From Anaerosolibacter sp. (GTDB taxonomy: Bacteria > Bacillota > Clostridia > Peptostreptococcales > Thermotaleaceae), in assembly GCF_029240175.1 (NCBI RefSeq), contig NZ_JARBTM010000008.1, positions 62,001-126,000 of the forward strand: a DNA stretch of 64,000 nt, given 5' to 3'. Position 1 is the first letter of the stretch. The number at the start of each line of letters is the position of its first letter. A program made the translations under genes and the position numbers. Below, piece after piece: positions 8,208 to 63,396 of this stretch. Under the pieces are notes generated by a model. It was not told where the DNA came from, did not search any database, and was given only the letters and a program-made list of their open reading frames with translations.

Positions 8208-9324
8208 AAATGATTTTGCGGTTGTTCTGACAAGTACCATGGAATACCTAAAGGTTGTAAAAAAAGATGGGTTAGAAGAGGGAAAAGAAATTATCTTTGT
8301 CCAGGAAGACATTTATAGAAGAAGCAAGGTATCCATAAGGACTATTGGTTTAGCCGCAGCAATGTTCCTCATGATGTTTATTTCCATGACTTGGCTAAAT
8401 CCATGGAGTACCACAAAGATTCTGGCAAATACAGCCGCTGTTGTCAGTATAGATATCAACCCCAGTGTAGAGCTTGAAATCAATCAAGCGCAGGAAGTTT
8501 TGAAGGTAATTCCCATCAATGAGGATGGAAAGAAGGTTGTGTCAGAAAAACTGCTTGGCATGGCCATTGATGAAGCAGTCTTAGCCATTGTAGACAGCGC
8601 AAAGACATTAAACTATCTGACAGAGGAGCGAAATATGGTGCTGATTTCTACCACCATGACAGCTGAAAAGGTGAGCCTTGATGGAAAAGAAATCGTTGGG
8701 AGAATTGAACAAAAGCTGGAAGAGAAGCTAGATATTCAAGAAATTCAAGTTGCCTATTTAGAAGGAAAGAAAGAAGATGTAAAAAAAGCTCGAGCACAGC
8801 ATGTATCCATTGGGAAGTATGGTGTTTTGAAAAAAGCGGAAGCTGATGGAGAACAGATTACAGTTGAAGAGATTAAAGAATTAAAGGTACAACAGATTCT
8901 GGACAAAGGTGTTGGAAAATTAAACGTTAAAGAATTAAAGAAAAAAATACAGGATGATGAAATAAATGATGACCAAATAGAGAATAAGGTGACAGATGAA
9001 AAAGAGAAAAAGGAAAATCATCCACCAGGTCAAGAAGCAGCACCCGGTCTCGGAAAGGCGCCTGGACTGCAAAAAGCTCCTGGACTACAAAAAGCACCCG
9101 GCCAAATAAAAAAAGAAGCCTCTGCTGAAAATCAAAATAGTGAAAATAGAAAGCAGGAAGATAAAGACAAGGAAAAAGCGGTAGAAGAAGAGACGAGTAA
9201 GAAAGCACAAGGGAAAACAAAGGATCAGAAAGAAAAGTCCAAGGATGAAGAAAATGCTAAAGATGTGAATTCTAAGGAATGGAAGATATGGCTGGAAAAA
9301 CAAAAACAGAAGAATAAAAATTAG
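8176..9324 (+). CDS. rsgI: Anti-sigma factor RsgI with PG-repeat and charged C-terminus
   Basis: 382 residues from ATG 8176, with AAGGGGG 8 bases upstream; an in-frame GTG at 8167 is too close to that site. Residues 1-50 form the cytoplasmic RsgI_N domain that binds SigI (MVYRGCVVKLENDFAVVLT). A single membrane helix spans about 55-76. An outside domain follows with SIDINPSVELEIN (91-103), conserved in RsgI proteins. The outer tail is lysine/glutamate-rich and contains repeats PGLGKAPGLQKAPGLQKAPG. No carbohydrate-binding module is visible, so polysaccharide sensing is not supported. It overlaps sigI by 32 bases. Confidence 0.92.
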   Translation: MVYRGCVVKLENDFAVVLTSTMEYLKVVKKDGLEEGKEIIFVQEDIYRRSKVSIRTIGLAAAMFLMMFISMTWLNPWSTTKILANTAAVVSIDINPSVELEINQAQEVLKVIPINEDGKKVVSEKLLGMAIDEAVLAIVDSAKTLNYLTEERNMVLISTTMTAEKVSLDGKEIVGRIEQKLEEKLDIQEIQVAYLEGKKEDVKKARAQHVSIGKYGVLKKAEADGEQITVEEIKELKVQQILDKGVGKLNVKELKKKIQDDEINDDQIENKVTDEKEKKENHPPGQEAAPGLGKAPGLQKAPGLQKAPGQIKKEASAENQNSENRKQEDKDKEKAVEEETSKKAQGKTKDQKEKSKDEENAKDVNSKEWKIWLEKQKQKNKN

Positions 9325-9348
9325 GAAATAAGACATATTGGTGGCTAG

Positions 9349-9385
9349 AAAAACTTGTAGTATGCTAAGGCTACAAGTTTTTTAT
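9349..9385 (+). terminator. sigI-rsgI terminator
   Basis: AAAAACTTGTAG and CTACAAGTTTTTT flank a 10-base loop. Its T-run merges into the 5' palindrome of the structured element that follows. Confidence 0.85.
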
Positions 9386-9535
9386 TTAATAGGAAAGTTC
9401 TACTTTCCTATTAAATAAAAAATCAGGGGTGCAGGGGAAGTATTCCCATGCCGTATTCAGAGGGGTGCTCAGGCTGCTTGGCAGCCGTCGAAGGGGAACT
9501 AGGTTCCCCTAGCGAAGCAGCTTTGCTGCTTTTTG
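9381..9535 (+). ncRNA. HEARO/OMEGA-like structured RNA element, copy 1
   Basis: About 155 nt and almost identical in its core to copy 2 at 10.9 kb; copy 3 is at 50.2 kb. Parts in order: a perfect 17-bp hairpin (TTTATTTAATAGGAAAG, loop TTCTA); GGGGTGCAGGGGAAG; TATTCCCATGCCGTATTCAG; AGGGGTGCTCAGGCTG; hairpin GGCTGCTTGGCAGCC; GTCGAAGGGGAAC with its pair GTTCCCCTAGCGAAG; then a terminal GCAGC/GCTGC hairpin with T5. The core resembles, from memory, HEARO RNA, the guide scaffold of IscB/IsrB systems. No HNH nuclease gene is present. The identification needs a covariance-model search; that it is a structured repeated element is clear. Confidence 0.6.
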
Positions 9536-9576
9536 ACATTTATAGACAAATTTTTTTAACAAATAGGTAAAACAGC

Positions 9577-9601
9577 ACCTAAAAAGTAAAAAGAAGTCGT
9601 A
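9577..9601 (+). promoter_or_regulatory. Probable SigI-type promoter of the gene at 9645
   Basis: ACCTAAAAA, 18 bases from ACC to CGTA, then three bases and CTATGATGTAA. It aligns base for base in layout with the block ahead of sigI at 7398. Confidence 0.5.
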
Positions 9602-9644
9602 ATACTATGATGTAAATCAAGAAAACACAAAGGAGGACACAAAA

Positions 9645-10733
9645 ATGAAATGGAGAAAAATAGTTTCATTGACAGTCATTACTGCTTGTATGTTTACGGT
9701 GCCAGTTAGTGCCGCACCAAAGGTCGGCAAGGTGGAAGCACCTAAGGGAAAAGTAGTAAAAGAAGTACAGCTTGATATGGAAAGCACAGTTGAAGCCACA
9801 GATGAAACAGTTGAAGAAAAAGCTAAAGATAAGGCATGGAAAGCAGTGAAAGATCAGTTAGAAGAAAAGAAAAATGAAATAGAAGCTGAGAAAGATGCCA
9901 TAGAAGAGGCGTTAGCAAAATTAGAGGCTGACTATGAGGCTGCAAAAGCCAGCGGTGACGAAGCTGCAATTAAAACTGCTCAAGAAGCGATGGCTGCTGC
10001 CAAGGCTGAAATGACTGAGTTTAAAACACAAATGAGTGCAATCAAGGCAGAAATGAAGGACGTTATCAGAAATAAATATACCCAAGAAGAATTAGATGCT
10101 TTGAAGCAGGTGGCAGCAGAGATTGAGGAAGCGGATGCAGATGTAGAAGTAATTCCAGTGGAAAATATCTACTCTAAGAAAGGAAACTTTAAATTTGATG
10201 TTCCTCCGGTGATCAAGCAGGGAAGAACATTAATCCCTGTAAGAGCAATCACAGAGGGGCTTGGTGCTGAAGTTCAATGGGATGGAGAAAATCAAACGGT
10301 TACTGTGACAAAGGATGGTGTAGAGATTATTTTTGATCTAAAGACCGGTGCAGTAACGGTAGATGGTGAAGCGAAAACAATCGATGTACCTGCGGGACTT
10401 ATCAATAATAGAACCATGGTACCTTTGAGATTTATCGCGGAAGCCTTAAATTTGAAGGTAGGATATGATAGTGAAACAGGTGTTATCGACATCGACGAAG
10501 AAGCTGGCGAAACCACAGAGACAACAGAGGGTACCGATGCCGTAGATACAGCAGAACCGGTTGAAGCAACAGAAACAGCTGAGACAGTAGAGGATACTGA
10601 TGCTGTTGATACTGCTGAACCAGCTGAAACAACAGATGAAGAACAGACTATCGTTGTAGAACCAGTTCAAGACGATGAAGCTGGAGCTGATGTGACTAAT
10701 ACAGAGGTAGAGGATACAGCAGCACAAATATAA
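9645..10733 (+). CDS. Secreted coiled-coil protein with copper amine oxidase N-terminal-like domain
   Basis: 362 residues. Signal peptide at 1-24 (VSLTVITACMFTVPVSAAP), then a lysine/glutamate/alanine coiled coil at about 60-165. A copper amine oxidase N-like (stalk) domain at about 185-285 carries the typical GRTLIPVRAITEGLGAEVQW and RTMVPLRFIAEALN halves. The tail is rich in T, E, D and A and repeats DAVDTAEPVEATETAE-like units. Such domains occur in many surface proteins of clostridia and have no amine oxidase activity by themselves. It follows sigI-rsgI and appears to share their promoter type, so it may be a SigI-regulated envelope protein. ATG 9645 follows AAAGGAGG. Confidence 0.82.
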   Translation: MKWRKIVSLTVITACMFTVPVSAAPKVGKVEAPKGKVVKEVQLDMESTVEATDETVEEKAKDKAWKAVKDQLEEKKNEIEAEKDAIEEALAKLEADYEAAKASGDEAAIKTAQEAMAAAKAEMTEFKTQMSAIKAEMKDVIRNKYTQEELDALKQVAAEIEEADADVEVIPVENIYSKKGNFKFDVPPVIKQGRTLIPVRAITEGLGAEVQWDGENQTVTVTKDGVEIIFDLKTGAVTVDGEAKTIDVPAGLINNRTMVPLRFIAEALNLKVGYDSETGVIDIDEEAGETTETTEGTDAVDTAEPVEATETAETVEDTDAVDTAEPAETTDEEQTIVVEPVQDDEAGADVTNTEVEDTAAQI

Positions 10734-10770
10734 GTACATATCCATTTTCAATGACAGATAAACCTTTCTC

Positions 10771-10799
10771 TTGATAATGAAGAAAGAATACTCTATAAT
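10771..10799 (+). promoter_or_regulatory. Sigma-A promoter of the ZTP riboswitch leader
   Basis: TTGATA, a 17-base spacer and TATAAT; transcription would start near 10806, just ahead of the aptamer. Confidence 0.8.
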
Positions 10800-10812
10800 G
10801 AAAAACATAGTG

Positions 10813-10904
10813 AAATCACACGACTGGCGGAAGTGGAATAAACCACGGGGAGTGTGATGAAGAAAAGCCGACCGCCTGGGCACAAAACCCAGGTGGTTTT
10901 TTTG
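10813..10904 (+). promoter_or_regulatory. ZTP (pfl) riboswitch with terminator
   Basis: The pfl/ZTP motif is seen as ATCACACGACTGGCGGAAG, then GTGG/CCAC, ACGGGGAG, the closing GTGTGA, and the downstream pseudoknot partner CCGACCGCCTGGGC. ACCGCCTGGG also pairs with CCCAGGTGGT (10871-10897) to form a terminator with T7, the usual expression platform. ZTP/ZMP signals 10-formyl-THF shortage. These switches commonly precede fhs, which here begins 320 bases downstream after an inserted repeat element. Confidence 0.92.
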
Positions 10905-11055
10905 TTTATCAGGAAAGTTCTACTTTCCTGATAAACAAAAAAACAGGGGTGCAGGGGAAGTATTCCCATGCCGTATTCAGAGGGGTGCTCAGGCCGCTTT
11001 GCAGCCGTCGAAGGGGAACTAGGTTCCCCTAGCGAAGGCATCGTTAGATGCATTT
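10898..11055 (+). ncRNA. HEARO/OMEGA-like structured RNA element, copy 2
   Basis: The core is nearly identical to copy 1. The 5' hairpin has different but perfectly paired outer arms (20 bp, TTTTTTGTTTATCAGGAAAG, loop TTCTA), and the 3' hairpin is GCATC/GATGC followed by ATTTTTG. Its 5' arm begins in the T-run of the ZTP terminator, so it separates that riboswitch from fhs. No ORF inside. Function unknown; the HEARO assignment is tentative. Confidence 0.6.
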
Positions 11056-11221
11056 TTGTATTGATTAAGATGAAAATAAAAAATATTTTGAAAGCACATA
11101 CTAAAGCCGAATGACGGAAAAAATATTCTGTCTATTTTTAAAATTCGACGCTTTGGTGACGAGGGCTATTATATAATTCAGATATATAATATTGGGAAAA
11201 TACATAGAGAGGGTGGTTATG

Positions 11222-12904
11222 ATGGTAAACAAGGTACCAAGTGATATCGAAATCGCACAGCAGGCCAAAATGAAGGCAATTGGAGAGATTGCCAAGGATT
11301 GGAATATATTAGAGGACGAGCTTGAGCTTTATGGAAAGTATAAAGCAAAAATTAATCCCAGTATATTTACCAGATTAAAAGACAAGGAAGACGGTAAACT
11401 CATTCTTGTTACAGCAATCAATCCTACACCAGCAGGGGAAGGAAAGTCAACGACCACGGTAGGATTAGGTCAGGCCCTAAATAAAATTGGCAAGAAAACA
11501 GTGATTGCCTTAAGAGAGCCTTCTCTTGGACCCGTATTTGGGGTAAAGGGCGGTGCCGCAGGTGGTGGATATGCTCAAGTGGTGCCAATGGAGGATATCA
11601 ACCTTCACTTTACTGGAGATATGCATGCCATCACCACAGCCAACAACCTGTTGTCAGCGACAATAGATAACCATATTAATCATGGCAATGCATTAAATAT
11701 AGATCCAAGACAGATTATTTGGAAGAGAGTTTTAGATATGAACGATAGAGCCCTACGGGAAGTTGTTGTAGGGTTAGGCGGTAAAGCCAACGGATTTGTA
11801 AGACAGGATGGATTTATGATCACTGTGGCATCAGAGGTAATGGCAATCTTATGTTTGTCTTCTGACCTAATGGATTTAAAGGATCGACTTAGTAGAATGG
11901 TTATTGCCTACAATTATGGGGGTCAGCCTGTGACCTGTGGAGATTTAAATGTTCAAGGTGCTATGGCAACTGTATTAAAGGATGCCATTAAGCCGAATCT
12001 TGTCCAGACCCTTGAGAATACGCCAGCCTTAATTCATGGCGGGCCTTTTGCCAATATTGCCCATGGCTGTAACAGTATCATGGCGACGAAGCTAGGATTA
12101 AAGCTAGGAGACTATCTTGTGACAGAGGCAGGCTTCGGTGCAGACCTTGGGGCAGAAAAATTCTTAGATATCAAGTGTAGATATGGTGGACTAAAGCCAG
12201 CAGCTGTAGTGATTGTAGCAACGATACGTGCATTAAAAATGCATGGTGGTGTAAAGAAAACAGAGCTAGGTATAGAAAATGTAGAAGCTATCGAAAAAGG
12301 CTTTGCCAACCTTGCAAAGCAGGTGGAAAATATTCGAAAGTTCGGACTTCCTGTATTGGTGGCTGTGAATCGATTTGTCAGTGATACAGAAGCAGAAATA
12401 GAAATATTAACGAAAAAATGTATAGAATATGGTGTGGAAGTTGCACTAAACGAGGTGTGGTCAAAAGGCGGCGAAGGCGGCGTAGAGATGGCTGAGAAGC
12501 TGGTTCAAATCGTTGAAGGTACATCACCTGACTTTAAACACTTATATTCAGCAGAAGCATCCATTCCTGAAAAGGTTGAAACCATCGTAAAAGAGATTTA
12601 CGGCGGTGATGGTGTTGTATTCTCTTCTAAAGCCTTAAAGGAAATCAAGAAGCTCGAAGAATTAGGATTGGATAAACTCCCGATCTGTATGGCAAAAACC
12701 CAGTATTCTCTATCAGATGATCCAAATCTTTTAGGTGCGCCAAAAGGATTTAAGATTAATGTGAAGGAAGTCAGGGTGTCAGCAGGGGCAGGCTTTATCG
12801 TATGCCTCACAGGGGAAATTATGATTATGCCAGGATTGCCAAAGATACCATCGGCAGAGAAAATTGACATTGATGAAAACGGTGTGATTACAGGATTATT
12901 CTAA
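11222..12904 (+). CDS. fhs: Formate-tetrahydrofolate ligase
   Basis: 560 residues, the normal family length. It converts formate, ATP and THF to 10-formyl-THF, or the reverse when fermenting histidine or purines. The P-loop segment is [18 protein letters not shown] near residue 65. Further family blocks are [31 protein letters not shown], and [24 protein letters not shown] 11222 is preferred over the adjacent ATG 11219 because GAGAGGGTGG is then better spaced. It heads the fhs-hut-ftcD-hutI-fchA run. A ZTP riboswitch lies upstream. TATAAT-like boxes at 11172 and 11185 lack clear -35 partners. Confidence 0.97.
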
Positions 12905-50195: not shown

Positions 50196-50221
50196 ATGCT
50201 TTTTCCTCCTTTTTATTTTAT

Positions 50222-50372
50222 ATAGGAAATTGATTTTTGATTTCCTAGATACGGGGTGTGCAGAGGGGATTCCCCTTTGCCGTATTCAGGAAGGTGCTCA
50301 GGCTGTCTCGCAGCCGTCGAAGGAAACCTAGGGTTTCCTAGCGAAAACAAATTGCCGATAGGCAACTTTGTT
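50222..50372 (+). ncRNA. HEARO/OMEGA-like structured RNA element, copy 3 (diverged)
   Basis: Same parts in the same order as copies 1 and 2, with compensating changes: hairpin TAGGAAAT/ATTTCCTA, GGGGTGTGCAGAGGGGATTC, GCCGTATTCAGGAAGGTGCT, CAGGCTG, GTCGAAGGAAACC/GGTTTCCTAGCGAAA, and a 3' stem CAAATTGCC-GATA-GGCAACTTTG. Oriented opposite to the ytfI-ytfJ genes. Its 3' part overlaps the last codons of ytfI. No nuclease gene is present. Confidence 0.58.
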
Positions 50373-51017
50373 CTTTATAAATTGTATGATAATATTTCTA
50401 CTTGGGTTGGATAACAACAGCTTTATTACCAGTAAAATCAATACACCAATGATAATTCTACCTTGAACAGCAAAATTTCCCTCTAGCTTTTCCTCGTGAA
50501 AGATGGGCACAATCTGAATATCAAAATTCTTTAGCAAGGGATAGAGTATATTTAATCCACCCCAAAATACTCCTGTATGGTAGGGGTCATCAAAGCCTAT
50601 ACTTCCATGGAGTAGGAAGGCTTGTGGCTTCATGTGCTTCAAAACGTCGGCCACGAATCGGCATAGGACCTCAAATAGCCTCTTGTTTAGAAATAAACTG
50701 GCATCAAATCTTCTAGCCTTTTTTTTCTCTTGTTTTATGGATGGATCTTTCTTTTTTTTCAGCTTTTGTTTTTCTTGTCTGGGAGTTTGTGGCGATAGAT
50801 GAAAACCAAAAAGCTGTAGAGAAAAAGAAACTCTTTGACGAGATTCCATGGAAATAAGTCCTTTGAAACCGCCAAAAATCCAGATGATTTTTCCTTCAAG
50901 AAAGTAGGCTTCGTGTTTGTCACCTGAAAAAGCATATTCAAACGGAATCAGACACACTGTCAGCATAAGGATCAATAAGAAAATCAATAGAGTCGAGAGA
51001 ATACTTATCAATATCAT
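50328..51017 (-). CDS. ytfI: DUF2953 protein YtfI
   Basis: 229 residues. N-terminal membrane helix (SILSTLLIFLLILMLTVCL), a basic region KQKLKKKKDPSIKQEKKKAR, the DUF2953 core DDPYHTGVFWGGLNILYPLL, and a second hydrophobic helix near 195-210. The last 15 or so residues (KNKVAYRQFVFARKP) and the stop are encoded by the inserted structured element, so the native C-terminus has probably been replaced. Partner of ytfJ in Bacillus. Its ATG overlaps the anti-sigma stop (ATGA). Confidence 0.88.
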   Translation of the reverse strand: MILISILSTLLIFLLILMLTVCLIPFEYAFSGDKHEAYFLEGKIIWIFGGFKGLISMESRQRVSFSLQLFGFHLSPQTPRQEKQKLKKKKDPSIKQEKKKARRFDASLFLNKRLFEVLCRFVADVLKHMKPQAFLLHGSIGFDDPYHTGVFWGGLNILYPLLKNFDIQIVPIFHEEKLEGNFAVQGRIIIGVLILLVIKLLLSNPSRNIIIQFIKNKVAYRQFVFARKP

Positions 51018-59324: not shown

Positions 59325-59360
59325 AATAGTGCAAGGACAACTTAAAAATGATGATAAAAG

Positions 59361-59434
59361 TACTCATATAGTTTTGGCAATATGGGCCAAAAGTTTCTAC
59401 AAGACAACCGTAAATTGTCTAGCTATGGGTGAAA
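59361..59434 (+). promoter_or_regulatory. Guanine-type riboswitch aptamer (first of a tandem), variant core
   Basis: ACTCATATAGTTTTGGCAAT, ATGGGCCAAAAGTTTCTACA, and AGACAACCGTAAATTGTCT then AGCTATGGGT form the purine-aptamer stems P1-P3 with intact L2/L3. The base before UAUGGGU is C, as for guanine. Two features differ from the usual: the closing pair of P3 is A/A instead of C-G, and position 73 is G instead of A (TAGCTATG against TGACTATG at 38295). Ligand choice may differ. Confidence 0.85.
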
Positions 59435-59646
59435 GTGTATCTAGGGTTCCGATTTTTTTAGCAAACCGATTGTAGAAATGTCTGTGATGGGCATAATATG
59501 GATAGTTGATTCACGGTTTGCTTGAAAAGTGACTGGTCCGAGTGATACAGGTATTGCAATTTGCAATGCTACACCGAGGGGAGAAAAGCCCGGGCGGGAA
59601 GGTTTCACTTTGTGAGCATATACCTTCCCACTCGGGCTTTGTTTTT
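59430..59646 (+). promoter_or_regulatory. ykkC-family riboswitch (probably PRPP), second of a tandem, with terminator
   Basis: GTGTATCTAGGGTTCCG, later GTGACTGGTCCGAGTGATAC, ACACCGAGGGG and AGAAAAGCCCGGGCGGGAAG are the ykkC core in order. The P2 region carries an extra GCAAACCG...CGGTTTGC stem (59461-59521). AAAGCCCGGGCGGGAAGGT re-pairs with ACCTTCCCACTCGGGCTTT (59585-59640) to give a terminator. A guanine aptamer directly 5' is the arrangement of known guanine-PRPP tandem switches, and the downstream gene is a purine permease, so PRPP is the best ligand guess. Confidence 0.85.
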
Positions 59647-61986: not shown

Positions 61987-63396
61987 ATGTATCCAATTCA
62001 ATGGGATAAATTAAAAGAGGAATGTGGTGTCATTGGGATTTATGGCCCAGGGATAGAAAATATCTCTCAATTGGCCTACTTTGGACTCCATGCCCTTCAA
62101 CACAGGGGACAGGAGAGTGCAGGGATAGCGGTAAATAAAGGTGGAAAGATTACCTATTATAAAGAGATGGGTCTTGTACAGGAGGTTTTTTCCGATACGG
62201 TGCTTCAAAGACTCCAGGGAGATATAGCCATCGGCCACGTTCGTTATTCTACTACGGGAGAGAGCTATGTAACCAATGCCCAGCCCTTGGTTGTCCACTA
62301 CAAGGGAGGAGCCATTGCTTTAGGCCATAATGGAAATCTGGTGAATGCCAATCAAATACGAGAAGAGCTAGAAGACCAAGGGGTGATTTTTCAAACTTCC
62401 ATTGACAGTGAAGTGATTGCCAATCTTGTGGCCCGTTATAATGCTTTGCCCATCCATGAGGCAATTCAAAAAGCATTATCAAAGATCAAAGGTTCTTATG
62501 CATTGGTGATTACCCATGGCGAAAAGCTTATAGGGGTAAGAGATCCTAATGGACTACGGCCCTTATGCCTAGGCAAGATTGAGGGCGGTTATGTGCTGGC
62601 TTCTGAAAGCTGTGCCTTCAATGTGCTAAATGCAGAATTTGTTCGGGATATTGATGCAGGAGAAATGGTGATTATCGAAGGTAGTGAAGTAAAGAGCATT
62701 CGATATGCTGAAGATAAGAAAGCCTTATGCTCCTTTGAATTTGTATACTTTGCAAGGCCTGACAGCACCATGGACGGTCAAAGCGTATACTTGAGCAGAA
62801 GGAATGCAGGTAGAATCTTGGCCCAAGAGCATCCCGTAGAGGCAGATATGGTGATTGCGGTGCCGGATTCAGGGACTGTAGCGGCTATTGGGTTTGCTGA
62901 AGAGTCTAAGATACCCTTCGGAGAGGGCTTAATTAAGAATCGATATGTAGGGAGAACCTTTATACAGCCAGATCAAAAGATGCGTGAATTGAGCGTACGA
63001 TTGAAATTAAATGTATTGAAGGAAAACATAAAGGGCAAGCGATTGGTACTCATCGATGACTCCATCGTAAGAGGAACCACCAGCAGAAGGCTGGTAGATT
63101 TGTTAAAGGCAGCAGGCGCAAAAGAAGTGCATATACGGGTTTGTTCACCACCGGTGAAATTCTCCTGCTATTTTGGGATAGATACGCCAACAAGGAAGAA
63201 CCTGGTGGGTGCTGTCCATTCTATTGAAGAAATTCGCCAGATGACGGGTGCTGATAGTTTAGGCTATCTCAGCATTGAGGGATTGATGAAGTCTATCCAT
63301 ATCGACGGTCAGGGGCTATGCAATGCTTGTTTCAGCGGTGCATACCCTATGGAAGTACCAAAGGAAGGCAATAAGTTCTTATTCGAGAAAAGATAG
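61987..63396 (+). CDS. purF: Amidophosphoribosyltransferase
   Basis: 469 residues. The N-terminal 12-residue propeptide [12 protein letters not shown] is followed by the nucleophile C13 (ECGVIGIYG), which must be exposed by cleavage. Class II glutaminase domain with [16 protein letters not shown] site [19 protein letters not shown]. Cysteines in [19 protein letters not shown] and [11 protein letters not shown] can hold the 4Fe-4S cluster of the Bacillus-type, oxygen-labile enzyme. First step of purine synthesis. purM starts 11 bases later. Confidence 0.98.

Follow-up and report, generated by a model that had tools for sequence, protein, structure and literature searches.

Rfam types the Clostridiales-2 family (RF02937) as an sRNA gene and states no function for it. 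The Rfam model lacks the 5′ hairpin described below and ends before the stem P3 and the terminator part. A literature search outside subscription papers found no description of mobility or of terminator targeting for RF02937 or Clostridiales-2. Among mobile repeats, bcr1 of Bacillus cereus is about 155 bp long. It and the other group A bcr repeats are MITE-like, ORF-less and intergenic and have a TTTAT motif, according to the available portions of the cited papers (PMC6542083, PMC3446304), in which neither terminator targeting nor a flank-matched hairpin arm is mentioned. Our element is likened to them by description, as a MITE-like, ORF-less intergenic repeat, and not by sequence.

Group IIC introns insert just behind intrinsic terminators (PMC8919778, available portion), and the insertion sites of group A IStrons lie downstream of TTGAT, ATTAT or TTTAT (PMC4227781, available portion). 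Unlike the group IIC introns, the element is about 150 bp long, has no ORF, includes host sequence in its terminal hairpin, and shows no group II match in the window. With IS200/IS605-type elements, PATEs and group A IStrons it has in common terminal hairpins and a T-rich target, and no long terminal inverted repeats were seen in it either; it differs in the flank repeats of some copies and in a complementary segment 3′ of the hairpin that varies from copy to copy. In kind the element stands near the bcr1-type MITEs and the IS605 derivatives, set apart by its flank-matched arm and its terminator target.

Family assignment and copies in the window

The window is a 64,000-nt stretch of an Anaerosolibacter sp. 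draft genome (NZ_JARBTM010000008.1, positions 62,001 to 126,000). A first-pass annotation of it had placed three copies of a structured element at 9381, 10898 and 50222; these positions are right, the real extents being slightly wider (approximate limits in Table 1), and the motifs that it quoted were found in all three copies. Covariance-model scanning of the window with Rfam gave RF02937 scores of 82.9, 78.3 and 82.9 bits for copies 1, 2 and 3 (gathering threshold 58.6 bits), each spanning all 82 model positions, and all three are members of RF02937. R1, a model of a wider core made from 34 sequences that include the three window copies, matched the window in exactly three places at 108–117 bits (116.7, 114.1 and 108.0 for copies 1, 2 and 3). 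The count of three holds for the window but not for the genome (3.87 Mb draft), with its 43 matches, 38 of them above the Rfam cut-off.

Table 1. Coordinates of the element copies, their targets and adjoining features in the window.
Feature	Positions	Strand	Parts	Basis
Copy 1 target: host intrinsic terminator behind RsgI-like gene	9349-9383	+	Stem 9349-9360/9371-9382; T-tract 9378-9383	Inverted repeat; empty site in G001
Copy 1, with 5′ host T-tract and 3′ T5 repeat	9378-9534	+		RF02937; R1; empty-site comparison
Copy 1, 5′ hairpin	9378-9422	+	21-bp perfect stem, 3-nt loop; 5′ arm of host T6 and element, 3′ arm (A-arm) inside element	
Copy 1, conserved core	9423-9524	+	P1 9431-9451; P2 9472-9486; P3 9492-9510	Covariation; motifs; R1 match
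Copy 1, 3′ terminator-like hairpin with T5	9515-9534	+		
Copy 2 target: ZMP/ZTP riboswitch and its terminator	10810-10888; 10870-10903	+	Riboswitch 10810-10888; terminator and T-tract 10870-10903	RF01750, 60.5 bits; empty in G001
Copy 2	10897-11057	+	Hairpin 10896-10944; core 10943-11044; 3′ terminator 11038-11057	RF02937; R1
Copy 3	50219-50373	+	Subfamily with GGAAACC core and GTTC 3′ end	RF02937; R1; empty in G001
Last codons of DUF2953 (YtfI-like) ORF 50328-51017, read from copy 3	50328-50375	-		

The C-terminal residues of the YtfI-like ORF are element-derived, unlike those of the orthologue in Anaerosolibacter carboniphilus DSM 103526 (G001), which is of the same genus as the window genome. 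Copy 2 lies between the ZTP riboswitch terminator and a formate-tetrahydrofolate ligase gene (11192-12904), placing a second terminator-like hairpin in the riboswitch read-through path. Elsewhere in the window (59344-59598), a xanthine/uracil permease gene is preceded by a purine riboswitch and, directly behind this, a weak guanidine-I-class match (67.1 against 63 bits); the pair may be a guanine and PRPP (ykkC-type) tandem.

Fold and covariation

The first-pass annotation had taken the copies for a structured, covarying element, and this was borne out: by four of five measures, the stems show more covariation than the shuffled and slid controls. The 34 diverse cores compared were the 36 proposed, less L013, L248, L252, L253 and L044, plus the three window copies. 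Paired cells made up 96.4% (87.2% when shuffled), changes on both sides occurred at 11 of 23 pairs (7.4 when shuffled, with 2 of 500 shuffles reaching 11), 84 cells were changed on both sides against 27.4, and the covariation score was 0.336, compared with 0.172 for shuffles and at most 0.145 for slid registers. The remaining measure, further pair types, showed no excess over shuffles (24 against 24.6). Copy 1 folds with z = -6.56. The core alignment shows hardly any variation in three single-stranded motifs, GGTGCTCAG, GTCGAAGG and TAGCGAA.

A parallel change of AGAGGGG/AGGAAGG with AGGGG/AGGAA had also been remarked on, and we see it, across three subfamilies. It is no clean evidence for an extra helix, because the register shifts; pairing of the AGAGGGG segment with P3 was rejected for its register differing between subfamilies. 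In another genome of the class (G130), several matches cover about 126 bases against the 82-position model, so a core variant with an insertion of about 45 nt exists elsewhere in the class.

Distribution and empty sites

Within the lineage, 13 of 59 genomes have RF02937 matches; within the class, 23 of 293 do (18 of 181 genera), the window genome being included in both counts. Several genomes have dozens; the number per genome where present ranges from 1 to at least 63, these counts being lower bounds. By pattern we extracted 140 copies, 132 of them with a recognisable core start; L030 has a divergent core and was missed, so it stands outside the target, arm and pair counts below. One pattern hit in IMG/VR was considered as a sign of viral carriage and is treated as chance, because R1 did not confirm it at E<=10.

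At all seven sites compared, G001 has the homologous place without the element (L009, L026 and L008, which are copies 1, 2 and 3, and L023, L030, L031 and L041), though at L031 the element lacks its 3′ end, with part of the flank also missing, and in G001 the intergenic flank of L041 has diverged. The copy 1 site reads CTACAAG-TTTTTT-GACA in G001; here the element lies between TTTTTT and TTTTT-GACA. Copy 2 breaks the T-tract of the ZTP-riboswitch terminator. L023 splits TTTTTG, with TTTTTG again on the far side, and L030 splits TTTTTC-AT, a target kept in both G001 and G005, without repeating the C. A T-run plus G stands on both sides of L023, L026 and L041; more generally, several copies have T5-T6 or T5G on both sides, an odd base goes unrepeated in L030, L242 and L246, and several copies of the GTTC-ending subfamily have no clear flank repeat. 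That G001 lost copies, instead of the window genome gaining them, could also account for the empty sites. With its many near-identical dispersed copies of about 150 bp, the element is short, ORF-less, multi-copy and absent at orthologous sites, as are MITEs and other non-autonomous mobile elements.

In the complete genome of Geosporobacter ferrireducens (G011), 24 of 26 copies, judged by eye among the matches listed, are co-directional with replication. Long ORFs there also run mostly with replication (249 of 301 in 20 sampled stretches), and we therefore claim no special replication-strand bias. One copy in this genome (L252, G011:C1:2613300-2614200) lies immediately before the start of a gene that, by eye, we take to be for 16S rRNA. 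The 3′ flank of four copies (L199, L221, L227, L270) opens like the start of another copy, which suggests, from the flanks as read, repeated insertion into the same T-run. L014 and L024 have a common extra flank plus an inverted repeat of about 68 nt, perhaps another small mobile repeat.

Terminators as landing targets

T-runs precede all but 7 of the 132 copies. Of the 125 with a T-run, from seven genomes, 89 have a terminator-like hairpin directly before it (26 of 35 in the window genome), so that most scored copies lie directly behind such a hairpin, on its strand. By comparison, 67 of 1080 T-runs in the window have one, a control that includes DNA other than behind genes, as do 10.8% of 1590 random stretches. 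A gene-end control, limited to the 54 T-runs that lie up to 150 nt behind 41 window ORFs and excluding the two window target T-runs, gave a hairpin at 7. By the score used, 36 of the 125 copies have no terminator hairpin, window copy 3 (L008) among them; its score is 0, and its T-rich stretch is antisense to the ribosome-binding site of ytfJ. By inspection, copies that have the common 3′ end themselves close in a small hairpin and T-run. We infer from these positions that insertion would occur at T-runs, mostly those of terminators.

An arm matched to the flank

In copy 1 the outer 5′ strand of the 5′ hairpin is the host T-tract, and its 3′ strand, the A-arm, lies inside the element. Among copies, this inner strand follows the flank: TTTTTG is met by CAAAAA in L023, TTTTTC by GAAAAA in L030, TATTTTCTG by CAGAAAATA in L031 and TTTTTTTG by CAAAAAAA in L026. 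We scored the 12 positions beyond the apical stem in 45 of 78 hairpin-bearing copies, dropping 33 with other leader types or short arms. Flank and arm of the same copy pair at 526 of 540 positions, against a mean of 472.6 (sd 5.1, maximum 498) over 10,000 shuffles of inner strands within genomes. The match is complete in 37 of the 45 copies; the other eight have at least one mismatch, the worst being L048 with 6 of 12.

For L030 and L023 the empty sites in G001 and G005 keep the odd flank base, as does that in G001 for L026, and therefore it is the A-arm that matches the target and not the reverse. A-arms differ in 39 of 77 same-genome pairs whose cores are at most three bases apart, pairs that overlap and are not independent; the cores of L021 and L031 are identical. 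Such near-identical cores with different matched arms argue against an inherited guide: the A-arm seems to be rewritten to match its target, at insertion or by template switching later on. For five copies that have no local partner arm (L014, L024, L034, L039, L043) there was no good distant partner in the upstream flank fetched, which for L034, at a contig edge, is about 110 bases.

A longer relative

Another repeat is present at L041:1313-1642 and at several G001 loci (L317-L322), in a long form of about 340 nt and in shorter and extended forms. Its 5′ hairpin is that of the copy 3 subfamily, its stems follow one another in the same order and its 3′ end is similar; the long form folds with z = -4.59. 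The repeat has no Rfam match of its own in L041, nor any at gathering level in L317, L318, L320 and L322. R1 matches the short form L320 (21.3 bits, E = 0.00085, a rough value) and none of the forms in L041, L317, L318, L319, L321 and L322; in L041 and L317 it matches RF02937 copies instead. Judged by these common ends and architecture, the repeat is a putative structured relative, as yet undescribed. L321 and L322 have a G+C-rich insertion of about 75 nt in the P3 loop.

Interpretation and alternatives

In this lineage RF02937 is rather likely to be a non-autonomous mobile element of about 150 bp that targets terminators, a reading built on comparison of sequences. The element would enter T-runs, mostly those of terminators, where its insertions would stay harmless, and would leave a terminator at its own 3′ end. 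Movement would probably involve pairing of the host T-run with the A-arm, in an intermediate that is single-stranded or a hairpin. Mismatches in this hairpin might then be settled from the host strand, during insertion or in later template switching, and the A-arm be rewritten thereby. An enzyme supplied in trans would recognise the structured ends and the core. No mobilising enzyme was found, nor an autonomous copy among the loci read, which are part of the genomes. Of 16 genomes, 14 have Y1 transposases, namely all six element-rich ones and eight of ten others; these enzymes are possible candidates and, since they are also in those eight, are not implicated.

The first-pass annotation had likened the copies to HEARO, the OMEGA RNA of IscB-IsrB systems, as orphan guides serving a nuclease elsewhere in the genome. 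We consider this highly improbable. The likeness lies in a repeated, stand-alone, RNA-like structure with nearly invariant single-stranded motifs and a loosely similar look, but no HEARO covariance model (RF02033) matched in the window at gathering level, in 9300-11100 (copies 1 and 2) at E<=10, or genome-wide, and the same method did find HEARO in a control genome (G021), next to each of its two RRXRR (IscB/IsrB-type) genes, at 117.4 and 112.7 bits. Among 16 genomes searched, G021 alone yielded RRXRR genes (two); the six element-rich ones (G000, G001, G007, which is Geosporobacter subterraneus, G011, G013 and G034) yielded none, and so there is none in the window genome as searched, a draft, 96.5% complete. 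R1 in turn has no match at the two RRXRR loci of G021. A known unrelated repeat family, which the annotation had itself named as counting against its proposal, is nearly what was found, with a match to RF02937 in place of HEARO. The two RRXRR genes with adjoining HEARO RNAs in G021 (L342, L343) each have one in-frame stop in the matched region. An ordinary trans-acting sRNA gene, duplicated many times, is what the Rfam typing would lead one to expect, and the covariation of the core and its nearly invariant motifs across several genera do speak of structural constraint. The seven empty sites in G001 speak against such a gene, as does the start of most copies directly behind a terminator-like hairpin, with little space for their own promoter; in a scan of 9300-11120, no promoter-like site was found from 9300 to copy 1, and the nearest before copy 2 precedes the ZTP riboswitch. 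We regard this explanation as improbable.

Two further explanations leave the element mobile, or its arm matched, by other means. Flank repeats are not expected from intron reverse splicing. Their presence in some copies weighs against a SINE-like element moved by the reverse transcriptase of a group IIC intron, as does the lack of any intron sequence shown in common, group II introns being absent from the nine gathering-level Rfam matches of the window. The target is nevertheless the same as that given for bacterial class C introns in the available portion of one report (PMC8919778), which makes their reverse transcriptase a real alternative, if an unlikely one. In favour of it there is also one copy at a contig edge (L034, G000:C37:120500-122750): within the 5′ hairpin of that copy, the element is directly adjoined by a sequence that, by eye, we take for the 3′ end of a group II intron. 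The matching of the arm, for its part, could be only the correction of a quasi-palindrome by template switching during replication once the element is in place, and play no part in transposition. For E. coli, template-switch mutation has been described at imperfect inverted repeats (PMC7202029, available portion). Template switching would also account for matched changes in that part of the stem which belongs to the element itself. What makes us hesitate is that so many copies match at every position, those with identical or near-identical cores included, so that correction would need to far outpace core divergence; we hold this account to be quite possible, though somewhat doubtful. Returning to the terminator-targeting mobile element, we would put forward with still less confidence, as a rather unlikely extension, that insertion itself copies the host target, inverted, into the element: the cleaved T-run would fold on the A-arm and serve as template, host sequence would seal the terminal hairpin, and the pathway would be common to RF02937 and the relative of about 340 nt.

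Implications

The reading preferred here would turn an RNA family typed as sRNA into a mobile element that has the intrinsic terminator for its defined safe harbour. Covariation among repeats in one genome can stem from mobile DNA hairpins as well as from functional RNA. Structure-dependent, terminator-directed insertion would be relevant to genome evolution and to the harmless insertion of DNA. The site-matched arm would be a readable record of the insertion step, making the mechanism directly testable by sequencing new insertions. If copying of the target at insertion is true, transposition would follow a pathway that leaves an imprint of the target in the element.
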